From contig CAMBYH010000007.1 in NCBI GenBank assembly GCA_945872065.1, forward strand, positions 1 through 64,000: 64,000 nt of DNA, read 5' to 3'. This DNA comes from Arsukibacterium tuosuense. Its GTDB lineage: Bacteria; Pseudomonadota; Gammaproteobacteria; Steroidobacterales; GCA-2729495. Shown here piece by piece: positions 10,633 through 29,087 of this stretch (position 1 is the stretch's first letter; each line of letters starts with the position of its first letter). The notes beneath the pieces were generated by a model that saw only the letters and a program-made list of their open reading frames with translations, was not told the origin of the DNA and did no database searches. The position numbers and the translations under genes were made by a program.

Positions 10633-12876
10633 ATGCGGCCAGCAGCCAGAAAATCGTCGGGCCGGAGTTGGCAGCGGTGGGCCGTACGCCTGATCCTCAG
10701 CGCCCTGCCGCTGGCCGTGTTCATTCCCCACGCACTGGGCACGCGCCCGCTCGAGCCGCTCAGCCGGATCGAGAGCTATCTGTATGACTGGCGGGTGCGG
10801 GCCACGCTGACGCGGGCGGTCGATCCCCGCATCGTCATCGTGGACATCGACGAGACGAGCCTGGGCCGGGTGGGGCAGTGGCCCTGGCCCCGGGGTCAGG
10901 TGGCCACGCTGGTGGATCGGCTCTTCGACGACTACGGTGTCCGGGTCCTGGGTTTCGATGTGGTTTTCCCGGAGCCCGGGGGCGCCGAGGTCGCCGGGGT
11001 TTTCGAGGACTTGCGCCAGTCGCCGCTGGGGGCTGTTCCGGCCATCGTCCGGGAACTCACGGCCGCCGCCGACCGGCTGGACTGGGATAAGGCGTTCGCC
11101 GAGAGTCTCATCGCCCGGGACGTGGCCCTTGGCTTTGTCTTCAAGCAGCGGGTATCCCGGGACCAGCCCGCGGTGATCGGTGTTCTGCCCCCACACTTTG
11201 CCGCCGCAGATCCCCGCGTCCTGGCAGTGGACTGGGCGCGGCCTGCCGGTTACACGGGAAACCTGCCCGGGTTGCAGCAGTCGGCGGTTGCCGGCGGTTT
11301 CTTCGACACCGCCCTGGTGGACGCGGACGGCATCGTGCGGCGCAGCCCGCTGTTCCAGAGCTATCAGGGGAAGCTCTACCCGTCCCTGGCCGTCGCGGTG
11401 GCGCGGCTCGCTCGGCCGGACTCCCCCGTGCGCTTCATCTTTGCTGCCGAGAGCCCGGAGCTGCTGACCCACGTGGAACTCGGCACGAGCCGGGCCCCCG
11501 TCGACCGGAACGGCGCCGTGCTGATTCCGTTCCGCGGCCCCGTCGGCAGTTTCCCCTACGTGTCCGCGGTGGACGTACTGGATGGCACCGCACCGGCCGA
11601 TATTCTCTCGGGGGCCATCGTGCTGATCGGCACCAGTGCACCCGGCTTGCTCGACATCCGGCCGACGCCGGTGGGTCAGGAATACATCGGCGTAGAGACC
11701 CATGCCAATGTGATCGCCGGCCTGCTGGATGGGTCGTTTCCCTACCGGCCCGACAACGCGGCCCTCCTGGAGGTGGCCGGACTCCTGATCCTGGCGGTCC
11801 TGACCGCGCTGGTGGTACCCGTTCTCTCACCACCGGCAGGACTCGCCCTGGCGCTGACCCTGGCTGGACTCGCCATCGGTGCGGGCTTTCTGGCCTGGGT
11901 CCGGGCCGGCAGCGTGATTCCCGTGGGTGGCCTCGCGTTCTACACGGTGGTGGCGGCACTGCTCCAGCTGACCTACGGCTACTTTGCCGAGACCCGGCGC
12001 AAGCGCCGTTTGTCCCGGTTGTTCAGTCAGTACGTTCCGCCGGAAGTCGTCAGTGATCTGGATGCCAGCGAGGCGGAGGTGTCGCTGGAGGGCGAGACGC
12101 GGCAGATGTCAGTGCTGTTCTCCGATGTGCGAGGCTTCACCACCATTGCCGAAGGCCTGACGGCGCGAGAACTCACGCAGCTGATGAACGAGTTCCTCAC
12201 GCCGATCACCGCCGTGATCCAGGAGCACGGGGGCACCATCGACAAGTACATGGGCGATGCGGTGATGGCCTTCTGGGGCGCGCCGCTCAGCGACCCCGGG
12301 CACGCGCGCCACGCGGTGGAGTCCGCCCGGGCCATGGTGCTGGCCATGCGCGCCCTGCATCCCCAGTTCCGCGCCCGGGGCTGGCCGGAGCTGAACATCG
12401 GCGTGGGTATTTCTAGCGGCGCTATGAACGTGGGCAACATGGGCTCCCGCTTTCGCATGGCCTATACGGTGCTTGGCGACACGGTCAATCTCGGTTCGCG
12501 GCTGGAGGGTCTGACCAAGCAGTATGGCGTGGACATCATTGTCAGCGCCGCCACCGCTGCGGCGGTGCCCGACCACTTGTTCCGGGAGCTGGATCTGGTG
12601 CGGGTCAAGGGCAAGCAGGCACCGGTTGCCATTTACGAACCCCTGGGCCCCCTCGCGGAGGTTCCGGACGAGGGGCAGGCTGAGGTGGCTGCCTTCTCGG
12701 CCGTGCTCGCGCTGTACCGGGGGCAGCAGTGGGCCGCGGCCCGGGTGGCCCTCGAACGCCTCCAGGCTGCCCGGCCGCTGGCACTGTATGCCCTCTATCT
12801 GGAGCGTATCGCCCACTTCGTCGCGGCTCCGCCGCCACCGGACTGGGATGGGGTCTATGTCTTCCTGACCAAGTAG
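10633..12876 (+). CDS. CHASE2-domain class III adenylate/guanylate cyclase
   Basis: A 747-residue membrane signalling enzyme. One N-terminal membrane segment (about 20-37) precedes a periplasmic CHASE2 sensor (about 40-350, with IVIVDIDETSLGRVGQWPW and VLGFDVVFPEPG), then three membrane segments (about 372-445) and a cytoplasmic class III cyclase (about 490-680). The metal Asp residues lie in LFSDVRGFT and YMGDAVMAFWGAP, and the transition-state block is LGDTVNLGSRLEGL, so it should be active; cAMP is more likely than cGMP from the K/D pattern but this is not certain. It is first in a long co-directional run. Two cyclic-nucleotide-binding domains are encoded three genes downstream, an obvious candidate target. 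There are 97 bases before the next gene. Confidence 0.9.
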   Translation: MRPAARKSSGRSWQRWAVRLILSALPLAVFIPHALGTRPLEPLSRIESYLYDWRVRATLTRAVDPRIVIVDIDETSLGRVGQWPWPRGQVATLVDRLFDDYGVRVLGFDVVFPEPGGAEVAGVFEDLRQSPLGAVPAIVRELTAAADRLDWDKAFAESLIARDVALGFVFKQRVSRDQPAVIGVLPPHFAAADPRVLAVDWARPAGYTGNLPGLQQSAVAGGFFDTALVDADGIVRRSPLFQSYQGKLYPSLAVAVARLARPDSPVRFIFAAESPELLTHVELGTSRAPVDRNGAVLIPFRGPVGSFPYVSAVDVLDGTAPADILSGAIVLIGTSAPGLLDIRPTPVGQEYIGVETHANVIAGLLDGSFPYRPDNAALLEVAGLLILAVLTALVVPVLSPPAGLALALTLAGLAIGAGFLAWVRAGSVIPVGGLAFYTVVAALLQLTYGYFAETRRKRRLSRLFSQYVPPEVVSDLDASEAEVSLEGETRQMSVLFSDVRGFTTIAEGLTARELTQLMNEFLTPITAVIQEHGGTIDKYMGDAVMAFWGAPLSDPGHARHAVESARAMVLAMRALHPQFRARGWPELNIGVGISSGAMNVGNMGSRFRMAYTVLGDTVNLGSRLEGLTKQYGVDIIVSAATAAAVPDHLFRELDLVRVKGKQAPVAIYEPLGPLAEVPDEGQAEVAAFSAVLALYRGQQWAAARVALERLQAARPLALYALYLERIAHFVAAPPPPDWDGVYVFLTK

Positions 12877-12973: not shown

Positions 12974-14359
12974 ATGAAACGACGGGCAAGGGGCGATTCC
13001 CGACTGGAATTCGCGGGCCGATTTACGCGGGCACTTTCGGGCGTCTTGTGCGCACTCTGCCTGGGGCTTTCCGGGCCACCCGCCCGGTCCGCCGGGACTG
13101 ACTTCGGTGGAGTGCTGAAGCAGGCCCAGGTCCTGCTTGCAGCGGGGCAGGCACGGGAAGCCTGGGAGTTGCTGGCGCCCCTGGAGCTGGACGCGGCAGG
13201 CAGCCCTGACTTCGACTACCTCTACGGTCTTGCCGCTCTCGATAGCGGTCGGCAGGCAGACGCGATTCCCGCCCTGGAGCGGGTGCTGGCCCGGGAACCC
13301 GACTTTGCGGGCGCCCGGATGGAGCTGGCGCGGGCCCGCTTCGAGCTGGGCGACTACCGGTTGGCCAGGGTGCAATTCGATTACCTGCTGACCCAGTCGC
13401 CGCCACCGGCCACCCGGGCAGTCATCGACCGTTACCTGCTGGCGATGGATCAGGGCCTGGTGCCGACGGGTAGCGGCCGCAGCCGCTTCCTGCCCTACGT
13501 CGAGATCGGCTCGGGCTGGGACAGCAACGCGAACGCCTCGACCGACAGCACTACCTTTGGCCCCGTCGATCTCGACTCGAACAACGTGGAGACGGACTCG
13601 ACCTTCGTGGAACTGGCCGGTGGCTTCCAGCACGCTCTGGCCACCGGGCCGGATGGCGTGGTGATCTCCGCCGGCCGGGCGAGCTACCGGTTGAATCCGG
13701 ATGCCCGTTTCGTCGATCAGGCCCTGGTCTCGCTGGGCACGGCGGGCCAGAAGAGCTGGGGCGCTACCCGTGCGACCCTCGGGGCAAGCGGGTACTACAG
13801 CTGGCTCGACGGCAGCCCCCAGGCCTTGAGCGCCGGACTGGACCTGGGCCTCGCCCGCCAGCTGGGCCCGAACTGGGAGCTGGCATCCGTGGCGCGGGTC
13901 GGCAGCCTCCGTTACCAGCAGGACGATCTCGAGATTCTTGACGTCGACCGCTACCTGGGCACTCTGTCGGTGGTCCGCGCAGGCCTCGGCACCGCTGGTG
14001 GCCGGATGGGAGTGTCGGCCCTGTTCGGTGCCGACTCCGCGACGGAGAACGACTCGCCCTACGGCAACAACCGCCTCGGCGGCCGGTTCTTCACCGGCTG
14101 GCCGCTGGGCGCCCGGGGCAACCTGTTCTTCGATGCGGGCTACCTCGTCACCGACTACGACAGTCCGCCGGATTTCTTTGGCGAAGACCGGGAAGACCGG
14201 CAGTGGACGGCGGCTCTGAGCACGGAGTACCGGGACTGGCCGGCCCGGGGCTACAGCCTGGTGCCAACCCTGCGGTTTACCAACACCGACTCCACGGTGT
14301 CCCTGTACGAATACGACCGCCTTGAACTCGGCGTGTACCTGCGCCGGTCGAAGCGCTGA
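12974..14359 (+). CDS. TPR plus outer-membrane beta-barrel protein (Slam/DUF560-like)
   Basis: A 461-residue exported protein: a signal peptide after a long basic start (cleavage near residue 39), TPR-like helical repeats at about 43-165 (AREAWELLAPLE, ALERVLAREPDFAGARMELARA), then a beta-barrel from about 175 with PYVEIGSGWDSNANAST and alternating strands to the C-terminus (YEYDRLELGVYLRR). TPR followed by a DUF560-type barrel is the layout of Slam proteins, which move surface lipoproteins or secreted TbpB-like proteins across the outer membrane. The next gene encodes a protein with a TbpB-like C-terminal region, supporting that idea. It is not a close match that I can name; the Slam assignment is inference from architecture. 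Confidence 0.7.
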   Translation: MKRRARGDSRLEFAGRFTRALSGVLCALCLGLSGPPARSAGTDFGGVLKQAQVLLAAGQAREAWELLAPLELDAAGSPDFDYLYGLAALDSGRQADAIPALERVLAREPDFAGARMELARARFELGDYRLARVQFDYLLTQSPPPATRAVIDRYLLAMDQGLVPTGSGRSRFLPYVEIGSGWDSNANASTDSTTFGPVDLDSNNVETDSTFVELAGGFQHALATGPDGVVISAGRASYRLNPDARFVDQALVSLGTAGQKSWGATRATLGASGYYSWLDGSPQALSAGLDLGLARQLGPNWELASVARVGSLRYQQDDLEILDVDRYLGTLSVVRAGLGTAGGRMGVSALFGADSATENDSPYGNNRLGGRFFTGWPLGARGNLFFDAGYLVTDYDSPPDFFGEDREDRQWTAALSTEYRDWPARGYSLVPTLRFTNTDSTVSLYEYDRLELGVYLRRSKR

Positions 14360-14373
14360 AGGAGGCTCTGGTC

Positions 14374-16011
14374 ATGAAATTCCTCGCTGTCATCCTGTTG
14401 TCCCTCGCTACATTCAGCACAGCCTTCGCCTCGGCGGGCAAGGTGCTGTTCGTTTCGGGGCCCGTGAGCATCGAACGCACGACGGTAGCTGTTGCCCGGG
14501 CGGGCGATGCGGTCGAGCAGGGCGATGTCATCGCCACGGGAGATAACGCCCGGGCGCAACTGCTGATGAATGACGGCGCCCGCATCGCTCTGCGCAGCGG
14601 TTCGCGCTTTCGCATTGACGAGTTTTCCCTGCCAGCTGCTGTCAGTGCCCCCGTCCAGGCCACCACAGCCAATGCCGCCGGGAGGGCGGTGTCGAGCCTG
14701 CTGAAGGGTGGCTTTCGCACCACCTCGGGGGTCATTGGCAAGAACGACCCTGCCGCTTACGCGGTGCGGACCCCGGTGGGGACCCTGGGCATCCGTGGCA
14801 CGCGCTACGTGGCGGTCTGGTGTGCCGGTGACTGCCGCGATGTTCCGGGGCAGAAGCCCGGGGACGTGATTCGGGACGGGCTCTATCTGGGCGTGGAGGA
14901 GGGCGTGGTGGTATTCCAGTACGGAGCGCGTGAGTTCCGTCTGACCGCCGGCCAGAACCTGTTTGTCCCCGCTGACGGTGGCGAACCGGAGTCCCTGGAC
15001 CTGCCACCGGCGTGGTTTGGCCAGGATGGCGCCGGCAAGTTTGAACTCGCTGGCGGCGCCGTCACCGGCAAGGCCAACAACGTCCGGCTGCCGGGCGTGA
15101 ATGAGCGCCGCGGCCCGGCGAGTCAGAATACTTCTGGCCAGGACGGGGAACCGGCAACCGGTGAAGCGGGCGTTGACCAGCCCATCCTGGGTACCTTCGA
15201 CGGGGAGACCATCGACCTGACACCCGGCAGCGTCCGGCCCAACCAGCCCCAGACCGCGGAGCGTCGTGATCAGGCCTGGTCGGTGGCGAATCTCGCGCTG
15301 GCACCGGCGGGCGTCGCCTCCGGCGAAGTGCTGCTCCCCGGCGCATACACGGTAGACGCGGTTGGGAACCTCGTGGGTTTCGACGGCGTGTATCCCACGG
15401 GTTCGATACCCCTGACAGTCGCCTATGCCATCGGGACTGCCACCGGCCTGGAAAGCGCAGGCAATCCTGTGGCGCTACTCCGCTGGGGCCGCTGGTCTGG
15501 CGGGGACATGAGCGTCGCAGTGAACGGGACTCCCGGGGCCACCAGCCTCGCCCAGCAGAGCCTCCACTGGATACTCAGCGGCAACGCGGCCGTGGCGCCG
15601 GTGCTGCCCATTACCGGCAGCGTGACCTATACGCTGGTGGGCGCTACCAGCCCGACGGACGGTGTCGGTAATGTTGGTACGCTGGGCAGCGCCAGCCTGA
15701 CCGCAGATTTCACCAATAACCTGATAGCCACCACTCTTGATGTCAGCATGGCCGGCAACAACTGGATCGCCTCGGGCCTCGGTCCGATTGGCGCCCAAGC
15801 GGGCCTTCCTGCACACCAGTTCGAGGGTGTCTATAACAGCGTGCAGATCAATCCCATCCAGGGCACTGGCACCGGCACGTTCAGCGGCTTCTTCAGTGGC
15901 CCGGCGTCCGGCCCGGGCGGTGCGCCCGCGGGGGCCGGGCTGTCCTTCAACCTCAACGACGATCTGGGACTGATCCAGGTCAACGGCGTGGCGGCATTCG
16001 TCGCCCCATGA
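14374..16011 (+). CDS. FecR-domain secreted protein with TbpB-like C-terminal region
   Basis: A 545-residue protein with a cleavable signal peptide (about 1-20, no lipobox Cys), a FecR domain (about 35-200: GDAVEQGDVIATG, GARIALRSGSRFRID, TPVGTLGIRGTRYVA), a linker, and a C-terminal part (about 320-545) of Gly-rich strands (SVTYTLVGATSPTDGVGNVG, GTFSGFFSGP, VNGVAAF) resembling the eight-stranded barrel of transferrin-binding-protein-B type handles. FecR domains outside sigma-factor systems are common in such surface proteins. AGGAGG precedes the ATG. Fourteen bases separate it from the TPR barrel gene, and its stop overlaps the next start as ATGA. I propose it is the cargo of the TPR barrel protein. 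Confidence 0.75.
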   Translation: MKFLAVILLSLATFSTAFASAGKVLFVSGPVSIERTTVAVARAGDAVEQGDVIATGDNARAQLLMNDGARIALRSGSRFRIDEFSLPAAVSAPVQATTANAAGRAVSSLLKGGFRTTSGVIGKNDPAAYAVRTPVGTLGIRGTRYVAVWCAGDCRDVPGQKPGDVIRDGLYLGVEEGVVVFQYGAREFRLTAGQNLFVPADGGEPESLDLPPAWFGQDGAGKFELAGGAVTGKANNVRLPGVNERRGPASQNTSGQDGEPATGEAGVDQPILGTFDGETIDLTPGSVRPNQPQTAERRDQAWSVANLALAPAGVASGEVLLPGAYTVDAVGNLVGFDGVYPTGSIPLTVAYAIGTATGLESAGNPVALLRWGRWSGGDMSVAVNGTPGATSLAQQSLHWILSGNAAVAPVLPITGSVTYTLVGATSPTDGVGNVGTLGSASLTADFTNNLIATTLDVSMAGNNWIASGLGPIGAQAGLPAHQFEGVYNSVQINPIQGTGTGTFSGFFSGPASGPGGAPAGAGLSFNLNDDLGLIQVNGVAAFVAP

Positions 16012-18416
16012 CGGGAACCCGCTACAGAATTGCCATTATTGGCGGCGGACCCGGTGGCCTCAGTGCTGCCGCGCACGCCGCCCGGCTGGGCATATCCCAT
16101 GTGCTGCTGGAAGGCAGCCCCGCCCACGCCAACACGATCCAGCGGTACCAGAAGGGCAAGCACGTCATGGCAGAGCCCGCTGCTTTGCCCCTGCGGAGCG
16201 ATCTGGAGTTCGACGCCGGTACCCGGGAGGCCATCCTGGGGGCCTGGGAACAGGGCCTGGCCAGGCAGCAGATCAACGTGCGGTACGGTGCCGAGGTCAC
16301 CGGTATTCAGGGTGCCACTCCGGAGTTCTCCATCACTCTCAGGGACGGCACCGCTGTGTCGGCGGAACAGGTCATTCTGGCGATCGGCGTGCAGGGCAAT
16401 CCCCGCCGGATCGGTGTCCCGGGTGAGGACCTGCCGGTCGTGCAGTACACACTGGACGATCCCGATGAGTACCGGGACGAGACCATTGTGGTCATCGGCG
16501 CCGGCGATGCGGCCATCGAGAATGCACTGGCGCTCGCCCGTCAGAACCGGGTGCTGATCGTCAATCGCAGTGACGAGTTCAACCGGGTGAAGGAGGGCAA
16601 CCTCAAGCTGGTCATGAAAGCGATCGAGGACCAGCGCCTTGAGTGCGCCTACAAGTCGTCCTGCACACGCATCGAGCCTGCAAGCGATGGACGGCGCCAT
16701 GTCCTGACGCTGGCTGGCGACCAGGGGGAGTCCCGCATCGAGTGCGACCGGATCATCGCGCGCATTGGCGCTACTCCTCCCCGCCGGTTCGTGGAGAGAT
16801 GTGGCATCGCCTTTCCCGGCCCGGAGCCGGCCGCCCTGCCGGTGCTGTCCTCCCGCTACGAATCCAGCGTGCCCGGGCTCTATGTGATCGGAGCCCTGGG
16901 GGGCTATCCTCTGATCAAGCAGGCCATGAATCAGGGCTACGAGGCGGTTGAGTACGCCCTCGGCCACACCATCGAGCCGGCCGACGAGCCACTGTTGGCC
17001 GCCAAGTTCCAGGTCCTGCCCTTCATCCTTGGCGTGGACGACACGCTGGCGCTGATGCAGGCCAGGATACCCGTGTACTCGGCGATCAACCCGCTGAACT
17101 TCCGGGAGCTGATTCTGGGCAGTCGCATTGCCGCGCCCGCAGCGGGCGAGGTGATCTTCCTCAAGAACGACTACACGAACAGCTTCTTCACCATCCTGGC
17201 CGGCACCGTGGAGATCGAGGTGGGCGAGGAGCGCAAGAGCCGGCTGACGCTCGGGCCGGGCCAGTTCTTCGGGGAGATGAGTCTGCTGTCGGGTCGGCGG
17301 CGCTCGGCGACGACCCGGGCCGGTGCGGGTTGCGTACTGATCGAAGCGCCGCGCCGGGAGATCAACCGGCTGATCAGTTCGGTGGAGGGTGTGCGCCGGG
17401 TTATCGACGAGCACTTTATTGCCCGGGCCATCCAGACCAGCTTTGCTCCGGAGGCCAGCTATGACGACCTCAAGGCCATCGCTGCCAGTGCGAGGCTGCG
17501 CCGCTACAAGCCTGATGAGGTGATCTTCACCGAGGGTGACGAAGCCGACAGCCTGCACCTGATACGGAGCGGCTCCGTGGCGGTAGCCCGGGACATTGGT
17601 GGGCGAGACGTCGTTACTTCCTACGTGGCGGCCGGGAACTATGTGGGGGAAATGGGCCTCGTGAGCCGCACGGGCAGGACTGCCACGGTACGGGCGACTG
17701 TCACTACCGAAACTGTCAGCCTGGACGCCGCGACCTTCCATCAGTTGCTGGAGAAGAATCCGACCCTGCGCGATCAGGTGCAGGCCACGGTGCGCCGCCG
17801 CCTCGCGGAGAACACCCGCATGGCGGGTCAGCCGGAGAGTGGCGACCTTATTTCCTTCCTCATGCAGCAGGGCCTCGGCGAGGCGACGGACGTCCTGCTG
17901 ATCGACGAGACGCTCTGTATCGGCTGTGACAACTGTGAACGGGCCTGCGCCGAAACCCACGCCGGGACGTCCCGGCTCGACCGGGAGGCCGGCCCAACTT
18001 TCGCCCACATCCATGTGCCGACCTCCTGCCGGCACTGCGAGGATCCCCACTGCATGACGGACTGCCCGCCGGACGCGATCGGTCGGGCGCCTAACGGCGA
18101 GGTCTACATCCGTGACAACTGCATTGGCTGCGGCAACTGCGAGCGCAACTGTCCCTACGGCGTGATCCAGATGGCAGCTGCCGCACCGGAAAAGCCGGGG
18201 CTCCTCAACTGGCTGCTGTTTGGTGCCGGCCCCGGACCGGGCCAGGCAAGGCATGGGTCTGACCAGGGCGACAAGGGCCCCAAGAAAGCCGTGAAGTGCG
18301 ATATGTGCCGGGATGTCGGCGGCGGGCCGGCCTGCGTGCGGGCCTGTCCGACCGGAGCCGCAATTCGCATCTCTCCCGAGAAGTTCGTCCAGCTGATCCA
18401 CGACACGACGCGCTGA
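16008..18416 (+). CDS. Flavin oxidoreductase / two cNMP-binding domains / 4x[4Fe-4S] ferredoxin fusion
   Basis: An 802-residue three-part protein. Residues 1-325 form a thioredoxin-reductase-like FAD/NAD(P)H domain with GGGPGG at 12-17 and a second nucleotide motif VIGAGDAAIENA near 162, but no redox CxxC, like YpdA-type reductases. Two cyclic-nucleotide-binding domains follow (about 365-450 and 490-585), each with a phosphate-binding cassette: GEMSLLSGRRRSATTRA and GEMGLVSRTGRTATVRA. From about 637 to 785 is a ferredoxin module of the NrfC/DmsB/HybA kind with sixteen Cys in four groups (CIGCDNCERAC, CRHCEDPHCMTDC, CIGCGNCERNC, CDMC...CVRAC), enough for four clusters. No signal peptide: it is cytoplasmic. 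I infer NAD(P)H oxidation gated by cAMP/cGMP with electrons leaving to the membrane partner encoded three bases downstream. Confidence 0.88.
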   Translation: MTGTRYRIAIIGGGPGGLSAAAHAARLGISHVLLEGSPAHANTIQRYQKGKHVMAEPAALPLRSDLEFDAGTREAILGAWEQGLARQQINVRYGAEVTGIQGATPEFSITLRDGTAVSAEQVILAIGVQGNPRRIGVPGEDLPVVQYTLDDPDEYRDETIVVIGAGDAAIENALALARQNRVLIVNRSDEFNRVKEGNLKLVMKAIEDQRLECAYKSSCTRIEPASDGRRHVLTLAGDQGESRIECDRIIARIGATPPRRFVERCGIAFPGPEPAALPVLSSRYESSVPGLYVIGALGGYPLIKQAMNQGYEAVEYALGHTIEPADEPLLAAKFQVLPFILGVDDTLALMQARIPVYSAINPLNFRELILGSRIAAPAAGEVIFLKNDYTNSFFTILAGTVEIEVGEERKSRLTLGPGQFFGEMSLLSGRRRSATTRAGAGCVLIEAPRREINRLISSVEGVRRVIDEHFIARAIQTSFAPEASYDDLKAIAASARLRRYKPDEVIFTEGDEADSLHLIRSGSVAVARDIGGRDVVTSYVAAGNYVGEMGLVSRTGRTATVRATVTTETVSLDAATFHQLLEKNPTLRDQVQATVRRRLAENTRMAGQPESGDLISFLMQQGLGEATDVLLIDETLCIGCDNCERACAETHAGTSRLDREAGPTFAHIHVPTSCRHCEDPHCMTDCPPDAIGRAPNGEVYIRDNCIGCGNCERNCPYGVIQMAAAAPEKPGLLNWLLFGAGPGPGQARHGSDQGDKGPKKAVKCDMCRDVGGGPACVRACPTGAAIRISPEKFVQLIHDTTR

Positions 18417-18419
18417 GCC

Positions 18420-19310
18420 ATGCACCAGTCAGTTCTGGCCTACGGCAGATCCCGCTACCTGTGGGCGGCCCTGGCGGTTTGCGCCACCGCGATTGGCGCT
18501 TACGTCCTGGATTCACCCGGGGTTCCGCGCAACGGGGGCACCTGGCTGGGCTACACCCTGGGCACCCTCGGCGCGGTCCTGATTCTGTGGCTCATGTCCT
18601 TTGGAATCCGCAAGCGTGCCTATGCGTCCCAGGCGGGGACTGTGCAGGGCTGGCTCTCTGCCCATATCTACCTGGGCGTCAGCCTGCTGGTGGTGGTGAC
18701 GCTGCATACCGGTTTCCAGGTGGGCTGGAATATCCACACGCTGGCCTACGTTCTCCTGTGGATCGTGGTCGCCAGCGGAGTTTTCGGGGTCCTGGTCTAT
18801 CTGCGCTATCCCCGCTTGCTGAGCAGCAACCGCGGCTCCCAGACCAAGGATCAGCTCCTCAGTGATCTGGCCGATCTGGACGCACGCTGCCTCCGCGTGA
18901 CGGCCGGGATGCCTCCGGAATTCGGGGAAGCACTGCTGGCCAACCGGGACCGGACGCTGCTTGGGGGCACCGCCTTTGCCCTGCTGGCCGGCCAGGATCG
19001 TTCACAGATTCTGCTACCGGTAGTGGGCGGCGCGACGGTTCTCTACCAGGCCTTGCCCAACCCGGACCAGTCGGCGCTTCTCGACTGGCTGGGCCAGCGC
19101 CTCGCCGCCAGTAGCGATGGGGGGGTGTCGCGGCAGTTGCAGGAATTGCTCGGTCTGGTGGGTGCCCGGCGAACTCTGCTCGGCCGGCTCCGGCGGGACG
19201 CGCAGCTCAAGGCCTGGCTAGAAGTCTGGCTCTATGTGCACGTGCCGTTGTCCTTCGGGCTGCTGGCTGCGCTGATTGCCCATGTCCTCTCAGTCTTCAT
19301 CTACTGGTAG
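18420..19310 (+). CDS. Cytochrome-b-like integral membrane protein
   Basis: A 296-residue protein with five predicted membrane segments (about 13-31, 42-62, 82-98, 106-130, 272-295) and a soluble loop at 135-265. Histidines lie in or at the ends of helices: H82, H96, H106, H274 and H288, positions suited to ligating one or two b hemes. It has no named family that I recognise. It begins three bases after the iron-sulfur fusion and ends immediately before the FHA-decaheme gene, so it likely connects cytoplasmic electrons (or quinol) to the periplasmic hemes. The heme assignment is inference from His placement; a non-heme anchor protein is the alternative. Confidence 0.65.
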   Translation: MHQSVLAYGRSRYLWAALAVCATAIGAYVLDSPGVPRNGGTWLGYTLGTLGAVLILWLMSFGIRKRAYASQAGTVQGWLSAHIYLGVSLLVVVTLHTGFQVGWNIHTLAYVLLWIVVASGVFGVLVYLRYPRLLSSNRGSQTKDQLLSDLADLDARCLRVTAGMPPEFGEALLANRDRTLLGGTAFALLAGQDRSQILLPVVGGATVLYQALPNPDQSALLDWLGQRLAASSDGGVSRQLQELLGLVGARRTLLGRLRRDAQLKAWLEVWLYVHVPLSFGLLAALIAHVLSVFIYW

Positions 19311-20945
19311 TTGCCTGTGCGTGTCCTGATCCGCTTTCTCCGCGCCGGCCCTGCAGGGGCCGTCGAGCAGAAGGACAAGCTCTACGACGGCGAGTCGGTA
19401 ACGCTGGGGCGCGCCACTGACCAGGTTGTGCAGCTGAAGGACCGGCGCGTCGCGCTCGCCCATGCCCAGATCATCTTGCGCAACGGCCACCCGGTCCTGA
19501 TCAGCCGCGTGCCGGGCGGTGTGCTGGTCAACGGCACCCTCCAGCGCGAGGCGCGGCTGCGGGCTGGCGATGTGGTCACCCTGGGCGCCAATGTACTGCG
19601 GATCCTGCCGCCTCCGGCCGGTTGCGAACTGGCCTTCAGCTTCGAGCTGGACCCGGACGCCCGGCCCCAGAGCGTGGCGCTGGACTTGCCCAGGCTCCGA
19701 CTGGCGGAGCTGGGTTTCGGGAAGCGGCGCTGGTCCTGGGCGTTGTTCCTTGGAGTCTTCCTGCTGGCCCTGGCCATTCCGTCCGCCGGGTTGCGCAGTC
19801 CGCAAATCCAGGAAAGCTTGCGGGCGAGTCTGTTGCCGGATGACCACTGGTGGTCGCCCGGGCCACTCAGTCGGGTGCATGAGGTCCTGGGAACCCGCTG
19901 TGACGCCTGTCATCAGAAGCTGTTCCAGCGGGTCCGGAATGACGCGTGCCTCACCTGTCACGCCAGCAATCTGCATCAGCACTGGCCGCACCCTGGGATT
20001 GGTGCGGCCGCGCCAGAAATGCGCTGCGCCAGCTGTCACGCGGAGCACCACGAGCCCGCCACCCTGGTGCGCCAGGATCCGGCTGTGTGCATCAACTGTC
20101 ACCGGGACCTGAAGGCCCTTGCGCCTGCCACCCTTATTGCCGCGCGGGTGACGGATTTTGCTGCTGACCACCCTGGCTTCGCTGTGCCAGTTACGGACGA
20201 ATCGGGCCTCAAGTTTCCTCACGACGTCCACCTGGCGAAGGACGGTATCCGCTCACCAGTGGGCGATACGGTACTCGGGTGCAAGGACTGCCACGCCCTC
20301 GAGCCCGGCGGCGCGCGCTTTCGTCCGGTACAGATGCAGCGCGACTGCGGTGGGTGTCACCTGCTGGATTTCGACCCAGCATACCCGGAGCGCACTGTGC
20401 CCCACGGCGACGCCAAAGTGATCTCCGGGTTTCTGGTGGACTACTACAGCCGCCGCTATCTGGAGGCCTACGCGGACCCCCTGGCTGTTCCCGGCACTGC
20501 CCGGCGCACCGGGCCGAAGCTGACTGCACCAGAGCGGGAGCGTCTCCTGCGCACGGCCCGGGAACAGTCGGCGATGGTGACGCGGGATCTGTTTGAGCGC
20601 CGCAGCTGTGCCCAGTGCCACGACGTGACGCGGGATATCTCCAAGGTGCCTGACGAATGGCAGGTCAAGGCCGTCAAACTCAGGAGCGCGTGGCTCAAGG
20701 GTGCCACCTTCAACCATGCTGCCCATTCCACGGCGCTGACCAGCTGTGAAAGCTGCCACGGGGCGTTGGATTCAAAAGCAGCATCCGATGTGCTGCTCCC
20801 GGACATCGCCACCTGCCGGGAGTGTCACGCGGGTGGTGACGCCCACGCCACTCCTCCGGACCGTCTCACCAGCACCTGCAATCTGTGTCACGGCTTTCAT
20901 GGCGACGAGAACCCCTTGTGGCAGGCGCGGGGCGTGGCCCCATGA
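19311..20945 (+). CDS. FHA-domain inner-membrane decaheme cytochrome c
   Basis: A 544-residue protein that joins a cytoplasmic forkhead-associated domain (about 20-90: SVTLGRATDQVVQL, HAQIILRNGHP, VNGTLQ, LRAGDVVTLG) to a membrane helix (about 141-162) and a periplasmic multiheme part. Ten CXXCH motifs are present (CDACH, CLTCH, CASCH, CINCH, CKDCH, CGGCH, CAQCH, CESCH, CRECH, CNLCH). FHA domains bind phosphothreonine peptides, so this architecture would let Ser/Thr phosphorylation touch a respiratory cytochrome. The start is a TTG at 19311 abutting the previous stop, or a GTG two codons later; no strong ribosome site decides. Its stop overlaps the lipoprotein start as ATGA. Confidence 0.88.
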   Translation: MPVRVLIRFLRAGPAGAVEQKDKLYDGESVTLGRATDQVVQLKDRRVALAHAQIILRNGHPVLISRVPGGVLVNGTLQREARLRAGDVVTLGANVLRILPPPAGCELAFSFELDPDARPQSVALDLPRLRLAELGFGKRRWSWALFLGVFLLALAIPSAGLRSPQIQESLRASLLPDDHWWSPGPLSRVHEVLGTRCDACHQKLFQRVRNDACLTCHASNLHQHWPHPGIGAAAPEMRCASCHAEHHEPATLVRQDPAVCINCHRDLKALAPATLIAARVTDFAADHPGFAVPVTDESGLKFPHDVHLAKDGIRSPVGDTVLGCKDCHALEPGGARFRPVQMQRDCGGCHLLDFDPAYPERTVPHGDAKVISGFLVDYYSRRYLEAYADPLAVPGTARRTGPKLTAPERERLLRTAREQSAMVTRDLFERRSCAQCHDVTRDISKVPDEWQVKAVKLRSAWLKGATFNHAAHSTALTSCESCHGALDSKAASDVLLPDIATCRECHAGGDAHATPPDRLTSTCNLCHGFHGDENPLWQARGVAP

Positions 20946-22918
20946 ATAAGCCGGCCACTCTCGTTGTCATCGCCCTGGTGCTGACCGGTTGCGGGGGCGG
21001 TGGGGACGGTTCCCCCGCTGGTGCCGAGGCGCCAGGTCCGGCGCCCTGCGCCGGCAGTTGCGCAACAGCGAGCAGCCTGCTCTCCGGCGCCGACGTGGAG
21101 CGGGTGATCAGTCAGGCCGTTGCTGAGGCCGCCGCCCGGGGCCAGCCCTCGACCATTGCGGTGGTGGACCGGGTGGGGAACGTGCTCGCCGTCTTCCAGA
21201 TGACGGGTGCGCCCACGAGCGTGACGATCACGTCGGGCACCGGCGTAACCGGTGGACTTGAGGGCGTGAATATCGTGCCCGCCACCATGGCCGCCATCGC
21301 CAAGGCCATTACGGGTGCGTACCTCTCCAGCGAAGGCAACGCCTTCAGCACCCGCACTGCCAGTCAGATCGTGCAGCAGCATTTCAATCCGGGTGAGCTG
21401 CTGGCGCCCAGTGGGCCTCTGTCCGGCGTGCAGTTCAGCCAGCTGCCCTGCTCTGATCTGGCAGGCCGCTTTGGCGGCGGCCCTGCGGACGCGGGGCCTA
21501 AACGTTCACCCCTGGGTCTGGCCGCTGACCCCGGTGGCTTTCCCCTGTACAAGGCAGGCACACCGGTCGGCGGCGTTGGCGTCATCGCAGACGCCATCTA
21601 TGGCCTTGATCTGAGCATCAGCGATCAGGACTCGGCTGTGGACGAACTGGTCGCCCTGGCGGCCACCTTCGGGTTTGCAGCTCCCAGCGACCGGCGTGGC
21701 GACCGGATCAGCGCCGACGGCAAGACCTTTCGCTTCAGCGATGCGGGATTCAACGACCTGCTCACCGCGCCCGCCAGCGCTCCCGCCTTCAGCGCCATTA
21801 ATGGTGTGGATGGAATACTTCTCGCCGTCCCCGGCTATGCCGCCGCGACGGTCCAGGCTGGCGTGGCCTTCGGTCAGCCGAACTCAGGCGTGCAGGCCGA
21901 CCCGGCAGGCTTTCCGGGCCTGGATGCATTCGTGCTGGTGGATGATGCGGGTCAGCCCCGCTATCCGCCGGTGGCTGGCAGCGAGGCGCTGGGGGCACTC
22001 ACCGCCGCCGAGGTCCGGGAGCTCCTGAGCAGTGCCCTCAGCGTAGCGAACAGGGCCAGAGCGCAGATTCGCCGGCCCCTTGAAACCGCCGCACGGGTCA
22101 CGATCAGCGTGGTGGATTCAGCGGGTAATGTTCTTGGCATCGTGCGCAGCCGGGACGCGCCGGTCTTTGGCATCGACGTTGCCCTGCAGAAGGCCCGCAG
22201 CGCTGCCTTCCTGTCATCTGCTGTAGCGGACGCCGCGGTGACGGGGGTACCCGACGCGGTGTATCTGGACGGCGGACTGGTGGTGCTGGCGAGCAGTTCG
22301 CCGTCGGCCTACCTCCCAGCCGCGCAGGCGTTTCTCGGTCTGCCTGCCGCCTTTACGGACGGCGCCCTGGCCTTCTCCGCGCGTTCAATCGGCAATCTGT
22401 CCCGGCCCTTTTACCCGGACGGGGTCGACGGGCAGGGACCCGGCCCCTTCAGCAAGCCCCTCAGTGCCTGGAGTCCGTTTTCCACGGGCCTGCAACTGGA
22501 TCTGGCCTACAACGCCGTGATTCAGCACGTGGCGTTCGTGCTCGGCAGCGCACCGGACGTGCCACCCAACTGCACTGGCATCAGCGGCTTCAACACGGGA
22601 TTCGCCGTGGTATCTCCCATTGCTGGGCTGGCCAATGGTCTGCAGATCTTTCCTGGCGGTGTGCCGGTATATCGGGGTGCAACGCTGGTGGGGGCTGTGG
22701 GGGTCTCCGGGGACGGCGTCGACCAGGACGACATGATCGCGTTTCTGGGCGTGGCCGAGGCCACGGTTGCACTCGGTGGCTTGGGCGCGCCCGGCAATGC
22801 ACCCCGGGCCATCCGCTCGGACACGCTCCTGCCGTCTGGTGCGCGGCTGCGCTATGTGAACTGTCCCCAGGCCCCGTTTCTGGACTCCACAGAGCAGAGC
22901 GCCTGTGGTGGGCTCTAG
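20942..22918 (+). CDS. Lipoprotein with two GlcG/HbpS-type (DUF336) domains
   Basis: A 658-residue protein starting at the ATG that overlaps the previous stop; this start gives a lipoprotein signal with lipobox LTGC (Cys17), followed by a Gly-rich tether. Two related alpha/beta units are visible, each opening with a helix and the strand pattern of the GlcG/HbpS family (QPSTIAVVDRVGNVLAVFQM near 80-100; AARVTISVVDSAGNVLGIVR near 382-402). HbpS-type proteins bind heme or act as extracellular redox/heme sensors; GlcG itself has no firm role. Between two decaheme genes, heme binding or a structural role at the outer leaflet is a fair inference. After Cys17 comes Gly, compatible with outer-membrane sorting. 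Confidence 0.75.
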   Translation: MNKPATLVVIALVLTGCGGGGDGSPAGAEAPGPAPCAGSCATASSLLSGADVERVISQAVAEAAARGQPSTIAVVDRVGNVLAVFQMTGAPTSVTITSGTGVTGGLEGVNIVPATMAAIAKAITGAYLSSEGNAFSTRTASQIVQQHFNPGELLAPSGPLSGVQFSQLPCSDLAGRFGGGPADAGPKRSPLGLAADPGGFPLYKAGTPVGGVGVIADAIYGLDLSISDQDSAVDELVALAATFGFAAPSDRRGDRISADGKTFRFSDAGFNDLLTAPASAPAFSAINGVDGILLAVPGYAAATVQAGVAFGQPNSGVQADPAGFPGLDAFVLVDDAGQPRYPPVAGSEALGALTAAEVRELLSSALSVANRARAQIRRPLETAARVTISVVDSAGNVLGIVRSRDAPVFGIDVALQKARSAAFLSSAVADAAVTGVPDAVYLDGGLVVLASSSPSAYLPAAQAFLGLPAAFTDGALAFSARSIGNLSRPFYPDGVDGQGPGPFSKPLSAWSPFSTGLQLDLAYNAVIQHVAFVLGSAPDVPPNCTGISGFNTGFAVVSPIAGLANGLQIFPGGVPVYRGATLVGAVGVSGDGVDQDDMIAFLGVAEATVALGGLGAPGNAPRAIRSDTLLPSGARLRYVNCPQAPFLDSTEQSACGGL

Positions 22919-24680
22919 GTTTCTTCTTTTCAGTTTCCTGTTGTCCGGGACGTGCCTGGCGGGCGCGGGTGTGGCAGGGGAGCACTGTCCGGCCGAGACG
23001 CCTGTCGATCCGGACCGGCTCCGCCCTGGCGAACAAGTGCAACCCTTTGTCCCGACCCCGTGCAATCCTGCCGCTCTCCCGCTGCTCCCGGAGGCTGTGC
23101 CGCCGGCCTACACCGCCTACCCCGATCGCTGGCGCCTGGTCGATGTGCTGGGCTATGCCAATAACCTGTGGAATCCCTACCGGGGAAACAACTGGCTGAA
23201 GGGCGACCGCCCGGCCTTTGGCAAGGACTGGTTTGTGAGTCTCACGGGCATATCCGATACGGTGGTGGAACCGCGGCGCTTTCCCGTACCAGTCGGCGGC
23301 CCGGTCACGGAGAATCCCGGCAGTCTTGATGTCCTCGGTGAAGGTCAGCAGCTGGTACTGGCGGAAACAATTCTTCTGGAGGGAGTCCTTTACAAAGGGG
23401 ACACCGTCTTCATGCCGCCCGAGTGGGAGTTCCGGATCATTCCGGCCTTCAACGTCAATTACGCCCGGTCCGAAGAGCGGGGCTTCCTGCAGGCGCCCGC
23501 CGATGCGAGTACGACGCGGCGGGATGCCACGGTTGCCCTGCAGGGCCTTTTCGTTGACCGGCATCTCCGGGATGTTTCAGCGAACTACGATTTCGATTCC
23601 CTGCGCGTGGGTATCCAGCCGTTCACGGCGGACTTTCGCGGCTTTCTGTTCCTCGACAGTCCGGTCGGCGTCCGGCTCTTCGGGAACCGGCAGAACAACC
23701 GCTATCAGTACAACCTGGCCTGGTTCCGGCGCCTCGACAAGGACACCAATAGCGGACTCAATGCCATTCTTGAGGACGGGCTACCGAGTATCCGCAGTGA
23801 CGACGTCTTTGTGGCTAACCTGTATGCCCAGGATCTGCCGGTTCCAGGCTTCACGTCCCAGGTGATTGCGGCCTATAACCGTAACCGGGAGTCCGACGAT
23901 GTGCAGTACGATGACAACGGTTTTATTCAGCGGCCAGCTTCGATCGGGATCGAGTTGGGCAGGGACTACGATGTCGTCTATCTGGGCTACAACGGTGATG
24001 GTCATTTCGATGAGTTCAACCTGAGCATCTCGGCCTATGGGGCGGTTGGGGATGAGACGCGCAGCACCTTCACGACCGCCGGTGGCGACATCCGGGCCTT
24101 CTTTCTGGCTGCGGAAGTGTCCAGGGACTTCGACTGGATCCGCCCACGCCTGTCAGCACTCTACGCCAGCGGCGATGACGATCCCTTCGACGGCACCGCC
24201 GAGGGGTTTGACGCGATCTTTGAGAACCCTCTGTTTGCCGGCGCCGACACCAGCTTCTGGATTCGCCAGCCCGTGCCGCTGATTGGCGGTGGGCGCGTGG
24301 GCTTGTCGGGACGCAACGGGATACTCAACTCCCTGCGGTCCTCCAAGGAATTCGGGCAGTCCAACTTCAGTAATCCGGGCACCGTACTCCTGGGACTCGG
24401 CGCCGACCTGGACCTGTCGCCGCAATTGCGCCTGAGTGGCAACGCCAATGAGCTCTGGTTTGCCGATACCACCACCGTGGAAGTGGCGCGGAATCAGGGT
24501 GGAATTGACGAGCACCTCGGGCTCGACTTGTCTCTGGCCCTGACCTGGCGGCCGCTGGCCATTCAGAACATCGTCTTCCGGTTATCCGCGGCGGCGCTGA
24601 TTCCGGGCAAGGGTTACGAGCAGCTGTATGGCGATGAAACAGCCTACTCGATTCTGGGCAACCTGGTGCTGACGTACTGA
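22905..24680 (+). CDS. Outer-membrane beta-barrel protein of the cytochrome locus
   Basis: A 591-residue exported protein (signal peptide about 1-24) with a short Pro-rich, Cys-containing N-terminal part and a long run of alternating amphipathic strands ending in LGNLVLTY with a terminal Tyr, as in outer-membrane porins. Strand-rich repeats such as FNVNYARSEERG, YQYNLAWFRRL and FNLSISAYGAVG support a barrel of 16 or more strands. It starts at a GTG (22905) 14 bases inside the previous gene. Lying between two decaheme genes, it is the natural candidate for the porin sheath of a porin-cytochrome conduit, although I see no clear match to MtrB or PioB. Alginate-export-type barrels are another possible relative. 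Confidence 0.75.
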   Translation: MVGSRFLLFSFLLSGTCLAGAGVAGEHCPAETPVDPDRLRPGEQVQPFVPTPCNPAALPLLPEAVPPAYTAYPDRWRLVDVLGYANNLWNPYRGNNWLKGDRPAFGKDWFVSLTGISDTVVEPRRFPVPVGGPVTENPGSLDVLGEGQQLVLAETILLEGVLYKGDTVFMPPEWEFRIIPAFNVNYARSEERGFLQAPADASTTRRDATVALQGLFVDRHLRDVSANYDFDSLRVGIQPFTADFRGFLFLDSPVGVRLFGNRQNNRYQYNLAWFRRLDKDTNSGLNAILEDGLPSIRSDDVFVANLYAQDLPVPGFTSQVIAAYNRNRESDDVQYDDNGFIQRPASIGIELGRDYDVVYLGYNGDGHFDEFNLSISAYGAVGDETRSTFTTAGGDIRAFFLAAEVSRDFDWIRPRLSALYASGDDDPFDGTAEGFDAIFENPLFAGADTSFWIRQPVPLIGGGRVGLSGRNGILNSLRSSKEFGQSNFSNPGTVLLGLGADLDLSPQLRLSGNANELWFADTTTVEVARNQGGIDEHLGLDLSLALTWRPLAIQNIVFRLSAAALIPGKGYEQLYGDETAYSILGNLVLTY

Positions 24681-24682
24681 GT

Positions 24683-27600
24683 ATGAGGATGGAATCGCGG
24701 CTGAAGCCGCTCCTACTGGTAGTGCTCGCGACCGTGGCGCAGGCGTCGCCGGAAGAGCCGGCTGTGGAACGAGGCTGGGTAAGCGCGCCGGCAGCGCCGA
24801 AATCCCAGCCCGCTGCAGCGGCGGACCGCAAGAGTGCAGGATGCCTCGACTGTCACACCCGGACGGACCAGCCGACGATGCACGCGAGCCCTGCGGTAGT
24901 GCTGGGCTGTGCCGACTGTCATGGCGGTGACGCTGCCGTCCGGCGGTCATCAGTAATCCTCGATAAGACAGAGCCTTATGAGTTATTGCTAAGGCAGGCT
25001 CACATTCTGCCCCGCTACCCGGAGGCCTGGGCAAAGCAGGGCAGCGCCAACCCGATCCGCAGCTACACGCTGCTGAACCGGGAAGCCCCCGAGTTCATCC
25101 GCTTCATCAACCCCGGGGACTACCGGATCGCCCGGGAGTCCTGCGGCAGCTGCCACCTGCCAGTGATCGAGGCAGCAGAGCGCAGCCTGATGGCGACGAA
25201 CGCGATGTTCTGGGGTGGCGCGGCCTATAACAACGGGATACTGCCTCTCAAGAACTATGTCCTCGGCGAGGGCTACACCCGGGAGGGGCAACCAGCCATC
25301 CTGAACAGCGCACCTCTGGACACGCTGGGTCTTACGCCCGAGCAGGCGCAGGACCGGGGCGTGCTGACCAGGCTTTACCCGCTGCCCCGGTGGGAAAACC
25401 TGCAGCCGGCCGATGTCTTCCGGGTCTTCGAGGACGGCGGGCGCAATGTGCTCAACACGTTCCCTGAAACCGGCATTCCCAATGCACTCGGCCAGCTGCA
25501 GCGTCTCGAGGAGCCGGGCCGCCCGGATGTGAAACAGTCCAGCCGCGGTCCTGGGACTGGCGCGCGCATCGCTGTGCCGGTCCTCAACATCCACAAGACC
25601 CGGCTGAACGACCCGCTGATGTGGTATCTCGGGACCAACGACCAGCCGGGCGACTACCGGTCGTCGGGCTGCTCCAGCTGTCATGTGGTGTACGCGAACG
25701 ACCGCAATCCGTTTTCGGCCAGTGTCTACGCAGCTGCAGGCCATCGGGGGCTTACCCAGACCACAGATCCAACCATTTCCCAGGACCAGAGTGGCCACCC
25801 GATCCGGCACGCCTTCTCCCGGTCCATTCCCACCAGTCAGTGCATGACCTGCCACATGCACCAGCCCAACATGTTCATGAACTCCTTCCTCGGCTACACG
25901 ATGTGGGACTACGAGTCCGACGCGCCGGCCATGTGGCCTGCCGAGCAGCAGTACCCGGACGCGGAGCAGATGCGCAAGGTGCTGGACAGGAATCCGGAAG
26001 GGGCTGCGCCAAGGGGCAAATGGGCCGACGAGGACTTCCTCGCCCGCGTCTCGGAGCTGAATCCGCAACTGAAGGACACCCAGTTCGCCGACTATCACGG
26101 GCACGGCTGGAACTTCCGCGGGGTCTTTAAACGTGACCGGAAGGGCAATCTGCTGGACAAGGACGGTGCCCTTGTCACCCCTGACGATCCGCAGAAGTGG
26201 GGCAAGGCGGTACACATGCAGTCCGTGCACGTGGATGCCGGTATGCAGTGTGTGGACTGCCACTATGCACAGGATGCCCACGGTACGGGGCACCTCATGG
26301 CCGAGGTGGCTCAGGCCGTAGAGATCGACTGCAAGGATTGCCACGGTACGACCCGCGCCTACCCGACGCTGCGCACATCGGGCCCTGCGTCGCCACCTGC
26401 TGGCACCGATCTCAGCACCCTGCGGAATCCGGACGGCCGCAAGCGCTTCGAGTGGCGGGGTGAAGTCCTCATCCAGCGCTCGGCTGTTGACCCGGAGCTC
26501 GAGTGGCAGGTCTCCCTCGTCAAAGCGTCGGTCACGCCCGGTAACGCGGGGTACAACCAGAAGGCAGCGCGCGCGAAGCTGATGTCGCGCGATACGCAGA
26601 CCCAGCGTTACGGTACCGATGTGGCCTGGGACCAGCTCGCCCACAACGACGACGAACTGGAGTGCTACACCTGTCACACCTCCTGGACTACCAGTTGCGG
26701 CGGCTGCCACCTGCCCATCGAGGCCAACTGGAAGACCGAGCGTCACCGGCCCGAAGGGGGCGCGTCCCGCAACTATGCAACCTACAACCCGCAGGTCGCC
26801 CGGGAGGAGATCTTCATGCTGGGCCGTCGCGGTCCCGCCGAGGGCAACAAGATTTCTCCCGTGCGCTCGTCCTCCGCTCTGGTGCTGTCCTCCACCAACG
26901 CCAACCGTGAGCGCATCTACGTGCAGCAGCCTCCGGTCTCCGCCTCGGGCTACAGCTCCCAGGCCATGAACCCCCACTATCCCCACACGGAGCGGAAGAC
27001 GGAGACCAAGGTGTGCTCGGACTGCCACCTGAGTGCCGCCGGAGACAACAACGCCATCCTCGCCCAGACGCTGGGGCAGGGGACCCAGTTCATCAATTTT
27101 CTCGGGCTTAACGCCTGGGTCGGTGAGGAGCGGGCGGTCAGCGCGGTGCAGGTCACCGAGTGGGAGGAGCCCCAGGCAGTAATCGGCAGCTACCTCCAGC
27201 GCTACGCCTACCCGGACTTCTACGCGGCACATCAGAAGCGGGGCATGGTGTTGCCGGTCATGGAGTCCCGCCGGTCCGGTCCCGCGGAGTGCCTGCAGTT
27301 GCGTGGCGAGTATCTCTACACGGCAGAGCGCGGCAAAGGGTTTCGCGTCTACGACGTGGCCGGGATCGCCAACAAGGGGCTCAGCCAGAAGATCCTGACG
27401 GGACCTTTCGGGCCGCTGGGGCAGGACACCCACGTGGCCACGGCCGACGCCACCTGCGTAGCACTCGCCACCACCCAGCCCGTGCATCCGCCCCGCAATG
27501 AGGGCGAGCTGATGCGGAAGGATAATCTGGAGCAGCCTTTTGCCTCGATCTACAACTACGCGGTGATCACCGATAGTGTCGAGGGTCTGATCCTCGTCGA

Positions 27601-28427: not shown

Positions 28428-29087
28428 ATGACTCTCGACCGCCTCGCACCCTGGTCCGCTGCCGTCATTGCGGCGGCCTTCGCCATGCACAACCTCAACG
28501 GCGCCTGGATCGAGCCCCGCTACCTGGGCTTTGGCAGCTACGCGGATTACGCGGACCTGGCCAAACTGCAGGCAGCCAGCCGGGCCTGGCCCTGGTTGCT
28601 GTCAGGAATCGGCCATGTGGCCAGTGGCTTTGCGGTGGTCGTCCTGGGGCTCGCGACATGGCGCCGCTACCAGGCACGACTGCCCGAGGCTGCGCTGGTG
28701 GCGATGGCTGCGGCGCTCCTTGCTGGTACCGGGTTCCTGCTGGTGGGCATTTCCCACGTCATTGGCCGGCAGACGCTGTTCCTGCTGGCGGACGCCAACT
28801 CCAGCGCGCTGCGGGATGTGGCCTACACCGCGGCGACGGTAATCCGCATCTGGGTAAACGCACTCGCCCAGATCGGCCTCGGCTGGTTTACGGTGCAACT
28901 CGCCTGGTGCGGCCGCAAGACCGGTGAGCTGCCCCGCAGTTTCATCGGGTTCAGCTTTGTCTCCGGTGCCTGCGGCCTGCTGATGGCAGTGGCCTACATT
29001 CCCGTCTACCTCTACACGGTGCTCATCTGGGCAGCATGGCTGGCGGTTGCGTGGCCCCGGCGCCAGGCTGGGGCGGCGCGTGCCTGA
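28428..29087 (+). CDS. Multi-pass membrane protein of unknown function
   Basis: A 219-residue protein beginning at the ATG 25 bases after the decaheme gene; a longer in-frame reading would overlap that gene and is not supported. About six hydrophobic segments are visible (roughly 8-24, 55-75, 85-110, 125-145, 158-176, 184-206). One segment contains a His (GISHVIGRQTLFLLAD) that could bind a cofactor, but no family is recognised. It belongs to the same run as the cytochrome genes and its stop overlaps the next reading frame, so it is probably co-expressed. A quinone- or heme-interacting membrane subunit is possible but not shown. Confidence 0.65.
   Translation: MTLDRLAPWSAAVIAAAFAMHNLNGAWIEPRYLGFGSYADYADLAKLQAASRAWPWLLSGIGHVASGFAVVVLGLATWRRYQARLPEAALVAMAAALLAGTGFLLVGISHVIGRQTLFLLADANSSALRDVAYTAATVIRIWVNALAQIGLGWFTVQLAWCGRKTGELPRSFIGFSFVSGACGLLMAVAYIPVYLYTVLIWAAWLAVAWPRRQAGAARA

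Follow-up and report, generated by a model that had tools for sequence, protein, structure and literature searches.

A decaheme cytochrome with a non-canonical FHA domain in a proteobacterial gene set for a possible cyclic-nucleotide-responsive electron conduit

The window, a stretch of 64,000 nucleotides of contig CAMBYH010000007.1 (assembly GCA_945872065.1) from Arsukibacterium tuosuense, contains at positions 19311 to 20945 a gene for a cytochrome that joins a forkhead-associated (FHA) domain to a hydrophobic helix and ten CXXCH heme motifs. It lies directly behind the genes for a cytosolic FAD/4Fe-4S oxidoreductase with two cyclic-nucleotide-binding (cNMP) domains and for a five-helix membrane protein, here called CYTB. 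The FHA domain lacks residues that contact phosphothreonine, in the window as in its family, and FHA and cNMP domains are present together in this gene set and absent together from related clusters. The reading tentatively favoured, to which slightly less than even weight is given, is that the FHA-decaheme protein is the inner-membrane-anchored wire of a trans-envelope conduit which responds to cyclic nucleotides, and that its non-canonical FHA domain docks the oxidoreductase.

Protein architecture and residues of the FHA domain

The gene, its parts and its two closest partners, all on the + strand, are as follows.
19311 to 20945, + strand: FHA-decaheme cytochrome, open reading frame of 544 aa
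19398 to 19586, + strand: FHA domain, the stretch matched by Pfam PF00498; predicted local distance difference test (pLDDT) 92-98 over model residues 1-110
19722 to 19796, + strand: single membrane helix, from hydropathy; helix 136-160 of the model, numbered from 19317
19899 to 20891, + strand: ten CXXCH heme sites, from the sequence motif; ten also in nearly all complete relatives
16008 to 18416, + strand: cytosolic FAD/NAD(P) oxidoreductase with two cNMP-binding domains and 4Fe-4S (Pfam Pyr_redox_2/3, cNMP_binding at 127.7 bits in two stretches, Fer4 models)
18420 to 19310, + strand: CYTB, five-helix membrane protein, probable diheme b-type cytochrome (His pairs, model)

The combination of FHA domain, membrane helix and ten CXXCH motifs reported in the first-pass annotation is borne out by the reading frame, Pfam, hydropathy and motif counts. 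The Pfam FHA profile matches residues 30-92 with 29.1 bits (cut-off 20.7) and was found at the same place in a genome-wide search; Cytochrome_C7 (52.5 bits) and Cytochrom_c3_2 (45.7 bits) are likewise above their Pfam cut-offs. There are exactly ten CXXCH motifs, the first at residue 197 and the last at residue 523. In alignments the GTG at 19317 coincides with the Met of relatives, and it is the more likely start of the gene. In the predicted model, which contained no heme, the FHA part reaches pLDDT 92-98 and the heme part is poorer. The best matches of the model in a fold comparison are FHA domains, namely those of EmbR (Z 10.9, root mean square deviation 2.5 Å, 92 aligned) and GarA (Z 10.5, 2.5 Å, 94 aligned).

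Hydropathy gives one hydrophobic helix at about residues 141-161, with KRR just before it, and no comparable hydrophobic stretch N-terminal of the FHA domain. Averaged over 75 rows, K/R and D/E number 3.5 and 0.5 in the 15 residues that precede the helix, and 1.8 and 1.7 in the 15 that follow it. Since c-type hemes are attached in the periplasm, this charge bias would place the FHA domain in the cytoplasm and the ten hemes in the periplasm; the topology proposed earlier thus agrees with all of these signals.

Residues were counted in a family alignment of 77 rows drawn from named and unnamed collections; the rows are related, and counts are of sequences and not of independent events. Before counting, L119 and L120, which duplicate the window and G462, were removed, as were members identical over the last 200 residues. 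FHA sequence is present in 74 of the 77 members; L057 and L093 have no FHA part because their contigs end, and G352 alone is truly without the domain.

The earlier annotation took the FHA domain for a reader of phosphothreonine from its GR, H and NG positions. Numbered from 19317, GR (31-32) and H (49) are genuine signature residues, whereas NG (72-73) belongs to a later 'vNG' and is not the phosphothreonine-contacting 'NGT'. The roles of the FHA residues in phosphothreonine contact are known from Rad53 and other FHA work. Aligned with solved FHA domains, the window protein has PGG at the contacting 'NGT'/'TNG' position; R32 is the Arg of GR, A46 replaces the phosphate-contacting Ser three residues before the His, and G67 replaces the loop Asn. 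Across the family the Arg is kept in 70 of 74 members and the His in 69 of 74, but the phosphate-binding Ser occurs in only 5 (69 of 74 are without it) and the phosphothreonine Asn in 0 of 73. The remaining five FHA domains of this genome, whose translations were compared by eye, have the Ser in 5/5 and the Asn in 4/5. The phosphothreonine-reader reading was therefore rejected on residues lost across the family and kept in these same-genome controls, degeneracy of the key residues being what the annotation had itself named as fatal to its claim; that the window domain is a canonical reader is not supported by its sequence. The FHA fold has nevertheless been retained though the phosphothreonine contacts are gone.

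The distribution of Ser/Thr kinases, suggested earlier as a check, gave a divided answer. Five are above the cut-off in the genome of the window, and at least one occurs in 25 of 30 carrier genomes; no Pkinase match occurs in G537, G658 or G703, each with a completeness rating of 100%, or in G103 (62% complete). Within the fetched flanks, which are of unequal length, a kinase gene was found at 2 of 80 loci. Kinase-free complete carriers and the rarity of kinases near the gene make it unlikely that the FHA-decaheme protein always requires a kinase input, although lineage-specific phosphorylation may still occur. The two nearby kinase genes, L133:1-2523 (-) and L127:10094-11509 (-), are in two gammaproteobacterial genomes and are candidates for such lineage-specific control; the FHA-decaheme members of these loci are also without Ser and Asn.

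Joint occurrence of FHA and cNMP domains

The cNMP sites of the FAD protein look functional from their residues, the opposite of the FHA site. In the phosphate-binding cassette of domain 1 both Glu and Arg are kept in 61/61 rows, and in domain 2 Glu is kept in 60/61 and Arg in 59/61. When FHA and cNMP states were compared over 61 rows, both were intact in 55, only FHA was altered or absent in three, only cNMP was altered in one and both were altered in two, numbers too few to use.

In CYTB, His 82, 96, 274 and 288 are present in 73/73 members as two H-x13-H pairs, which recur in the sister proteins described below. Two such pairs fit two stacked b hemes. In the model of CYTB a soluble insert accompanies five long helices, and 23 of 51 members match Pfam b561 (PF01292) at E<=1e-3. 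On these grounds CYTB is a probable diheme b-type cytochrome.

A profile made from distant CYTB relatives and the window copy matched 59 of 369 genomes of the class, FHA-type carriers included. Sister loci are 44 stretches, from 41 genomes, around CYTB genes that do not belong to the FHA-type set; 40 of these places came from the wide profile list and four from a separate list, and some stretches end at contig ends. Eight further non-FHA places (in G360, G130, G198, G287, G188, G336, G112 and G314) lie outside the 44. Most sister loci have a cytochrome of 18-24 CXXCH adjoining CYTB, further multihemes and an FAD protein. An FHA or cNMP match was found in 0 of the 44, against cNMP in eight and FHA in seven of eight control loci of the FHA family. 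Five sister loci (L195, L201, L204, L208 and L210) are without an FAD gene in the stretch, which makes the count for cNMP 0 of 39 where that gene is present. Pfam searches of three sister FAD proteins and four sister cytochromes agree, with no FHA or cNMP. From this joint presence and absence, the two modules appear to have been gained together by, or lost together from, a common core of FAD/FeS protein, CYTB and periplasmic multiheme.

The FHA-type set is also held together by position. All 16 class genomes with the decaheme family fall within the 19 of 369 that have CYTB; CYTB lies at most 400 bases from the FHA-decaheme gene in 47 of 50 named loci, and the FAD/cNMP gene is upstream in 47/47 named loci with enough sequence. 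In the window, the genes from 14374 to 28402 are on one strand and overlap or nearly touch. The further genes around the cytochrome are listed here.
10633 to 12876, + strand: CHASE2 plus class III adenylate/guanylate cyclase (Pfam CHASE2 190.6, Guanylate_cyc 69.9 bits); at the same place in gammaproteobacterial relatives
12974 to 14359, + strand: TPR/Slam-like protein (Pfam TPR_19 36.6, SlipAM 28.8 bits)
14374 to 16011, + strand: FecR-domain protein (Pfam FecR 33.4 bits), overlapping the next gene by 4 bases
20942 to 22918, + strand: HbpS-like lipoprotein (Pfam HbpS-like 80.8 bits; lipobox-like LTGC by eye)
22905 to 24680, + strand: porin-like outer-membrane barrel (NCBIfam DESULF_POR1 26.9, Pfam Alginate_exp 16.2 bits, both below cut-off); conserved neighbour
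24683 to 28402, + strand: decaheme cytochrome with LVIVD repeats (Pfam LVIVD 47.8, Cytochrom_c3_2 35.7 bits)

Ten CXXCH are present in 44 of 45 scored relatives of the LVIVD decaheme, and the protein has no sequence relative in the PDB. Near the FHA-decaheme gene of 43 named loci with enough sequence, the LVIVD decaheme was found 36 times, the porin 32 times and the HbpS-like gene 29 times. A cyclase or a CpdA-like gene is present in 33 of 37 loci (cyclase 8, CpdA-like 26, both in one); gammaproteobacterial loci typically carry the cyclase and alphaproteobacterial loci the CpdA-like gene.

A possible conduit and the alternatives

Trans-envelope electron conduits are mostly known in metal-respiring or iron-oxidising bacteria. 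The FHA-decaheme set is probably a variant of the multiheme electron conduit, and in the searched literature, which includes PMC10734462 in its accessible part, the gene set itself is not described and the FHA-type decaheme appears only as one table row of that paper. The sister clusters fit the description there of PCC3 from iron oxidisers and would then be PCC3; they share the CYTB superfamily and an FAD(/FeS) protein with the window set. The periplasmic subunit differs, with ten hemes in the window protein and 21-27 in PCC3 (PMC10734462, accessible part), and the FHA and cNMP modules are additions of the window set relative to the PCC3-like loci. CYTB may be the counterpart of the inner-membrane protein beside the periplasmic multiheme of PCC3, a likeness drawn by way of the PCC3-like sister clusters. 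Candidates for the outer-membrane porin and extracellular multiheme of PCC3 are the porin-like gene, with its sub-cut-off matches, and the LVIVD decaheme, whose surface exposure is putative. Table 1 of PMC10734462 lists, as cluster 403, a 'Forkhead-associated protein' with 10 CXXCH in 27 of 87 iron-oxidising Gallionellaceae, which has both features of the window protein and, going by this description, is probably of the same family; in the accessible part of that paper it is a table row under 'Other', without gene set, residues or function.

Other known systems resemble the window protein in parts. Canonical FHA domains (GarA/OdhI, FhaA, EmbR, Rad53) share with it the fold, the Arg and the His, but the window family has lost the phosphate-binding Ser and the phosphothreonine Asn. 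MtrA/DmsE-type decahemes also have ten hemes and a conduit role; unlike them the window protein has an inner-membrane anchor and an FHA domain, and it scores 28.3 bits with their profile TIGR03508, below the cut-off of 192.2. In type III secretion, YscD/MxiG have a degenerate FHA fold that precedes one membrane helix. The profile of their cytoplasmic domain (Yop-YscD_cpl, PF16697) gives the window protein 23.5 bits, below its cut-off of 33.2, and no type III secretion domain is among the 50 fold matches listed, which excludes nothing.

In the favoured reading, electrons would pass between the cytosolic FAD/4Fe-4S oxidoreductase, CYTB, the ten periplasmic hemes and the outer-membrane module of porin and LVIVD decaheme, in one direction or the other, and a cyclic nucleotide would control how electrons enter or leave the heme wire. 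Two intact cNMP sites together with an adjoining cyclase or phosphodiesterase-like gene make a cyclic nucleotide the likely control signal. The FHA domain would bind the cNMP/FAD/FeS protein, or else the cytosolic insert of CYTB, and keep it at the membrane, serving as a docking surface that needs no phosphorylation; that it docks the complex is a best guess, and the main support for a link between FHA and cNMP is their joint distribution. A more specific proposal, which is doubtful, is that cyclic AMP (cAMP) or cyclic GMP made or destroyed by the neighbouring gene products switches the FAD/FeS oxidoreductase, with the non-phospho FHA domain on the decaheme wire serving as its clutch to the membrane. 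An electron-transfer protein would in that case be the direct target of a second messenger, without the involvement of transcription. The gene set seems to carry such direct control and makes the cyclic-nucleotide switching of a heme wire testable.

Several results weigh against the favoured reading. A distance-correlation (mirror-tree) comparison of FHA with the parts of the FAD/cNMP protein gave values that are all alike (partial correlations 0.38-0.51, 60 rows), and the cNMP domains were not singled out. Among the parts tested, the FHA domain has diverged most (mean distance 0.67 compared with 0.28-0.59), and the one lineage without it (G352, L135) keeps the cNMP domains and the rest of the set, so that FHA is not strictly needed. 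Out of 43 loci, 7 are without a nearby LVIVD decaheme, 11 without the porin and 14 without the HbpS-like gene; in 4 of 37 both the cyclase and the CpdA-like gene are missing. By Pfam the CpdA-like product is a metallophosphoesterase of general type, and its cAMP specificity is putative. The window's own CYTB has no Pfam b-type match, and in fold searches none of its matches was significant (the best Foldseek E was 0.27), for which reason its b-type assignment is probable and not proven; VIA Z values of up to 9.5 against helical sensor domains are within the range common for helical models.

Two other uses of the FHA domain are each unlikely. In one it is a scaffold of its own kind, which would assemble with itself or keep the cytochrome in an array without binding the oxidoreductase, on the model of the inner-ring FHA folds of YscD/MxiG/PrgH; these proteins have the same arrangement of a cytosolic FHA fold, a single helix and a periplasmic part, and the Yop-YscD_cpl match points the same way, but that match is weak and below its cut-off, and self-assembly alone does not predict that FHA and cNMP are present or absent together. 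The other, given a similarly low chance, regards the domain as a remnant or a mere stabilising cap with no partner. Its rapid change, its loss in G352 and the altered GR of four more rows are consistent with this, against which stand its excellent predicted fold and its presence in all but one of the aligned members not cut by contig ends, over alpha- and gammaproteobacteria.

Far less probable than either are two further readings. It is very unlikely that the genes are a coincidental set of redox functions with an unrelated regulator and no single conduit. The outer-membrane half is on the other strand in most alphaproteobacterial loci and missing from some loci, which speaks for this, but the core order is kept across two classes, the decaheme family occurs with CYTB in 16/16 genomes, and the sister clusters repeat the core. 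Least probable is the view of the first-pass annotation, in which the FHA domain binds a kinase-written phosphothreonine on a partner and so recruits or docks the cytochrome. It has in its favour the fold, the conserved Arg and His and the kinases of the window's genome, of most carriers and beside L127 and L133; it is opposed by the loss of Ser and Asn, also in those two loci, by their retention in the other FHA domains of the genome, and by complete carriers with no kinase match.

Distribution and variants of the family

The pairing of FHA with a decaheme, which the first-pass annotation had suggested looking for elsewhere, is conserved in many alpha- and gammaproteobacteria, within a respiratory-type gene set. 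Full-length relatives, 39-48% identical, are present in 8 of 98 other genomes besides that of the window. The family occurs in 16 of 369 genomes of the class (its own genome and the FHA-less G352 counted), in 9 of 299 genomes of the phylum (its own counted) and on 12 plasmid records, all of Sphingobium, one of them typed conjugative. A contig scan with the family alignment found 54 loci, of which L097 (FHA part only) was dropped to leave 53 relatives; the same scan with the single window protein as query gave no match. The relatives are from Woeseiaceae and other gammaproteobacteria, Panacagrimonas, many Sphingomonadales, and Caulobacteraceae/Phenylobacterium. The gene set is thus widespread in sphingomonads, other alphaproteobacteria and gammaproteobacteria including Woeseiaceae, and nearly unmentioned in the searched literature. 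There was no PHROG match, and the window has no Rfam match.

The natural FHA-less decaheme of G352 (L135:11011-12453, - strand) has the remaining gene set, cNMP domains included. Its frame begins about 20 bases after the end of the CYTB frame, directly before the helix region. GR is altered in four further rows. G209 has two FHA-decaheme clusters (L136 and L138), both with GR changed to GA, and its cyclase, TPR and FecR genes are on the opposite strand.

Very large multiheme frames were seen beside CYTB in three sister loci, L193 (G309:C17:31000-50000), L147:660-5822 (-) and L203 (G445:C38), with sizes of 2341 aa and 77 CXXCH, 1721 aa and 69, and 1703 aa and 67. In L140, from plasmid pMSHV of Sphingobium herbicidovorans, the FHA-type cluster lies on a megaplasmid typed conjugative; the same stretch holds a c554-type cytochrome, a ShlB-type transporter, a CcmH-like TPR protein and a very large protein with no Pfam match in the part scanned. 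In the window, the frame that follows the operon (29047-29922, + strand) reads by eye like a cupin/JmjC-type hydroxylase with an HVD motif.
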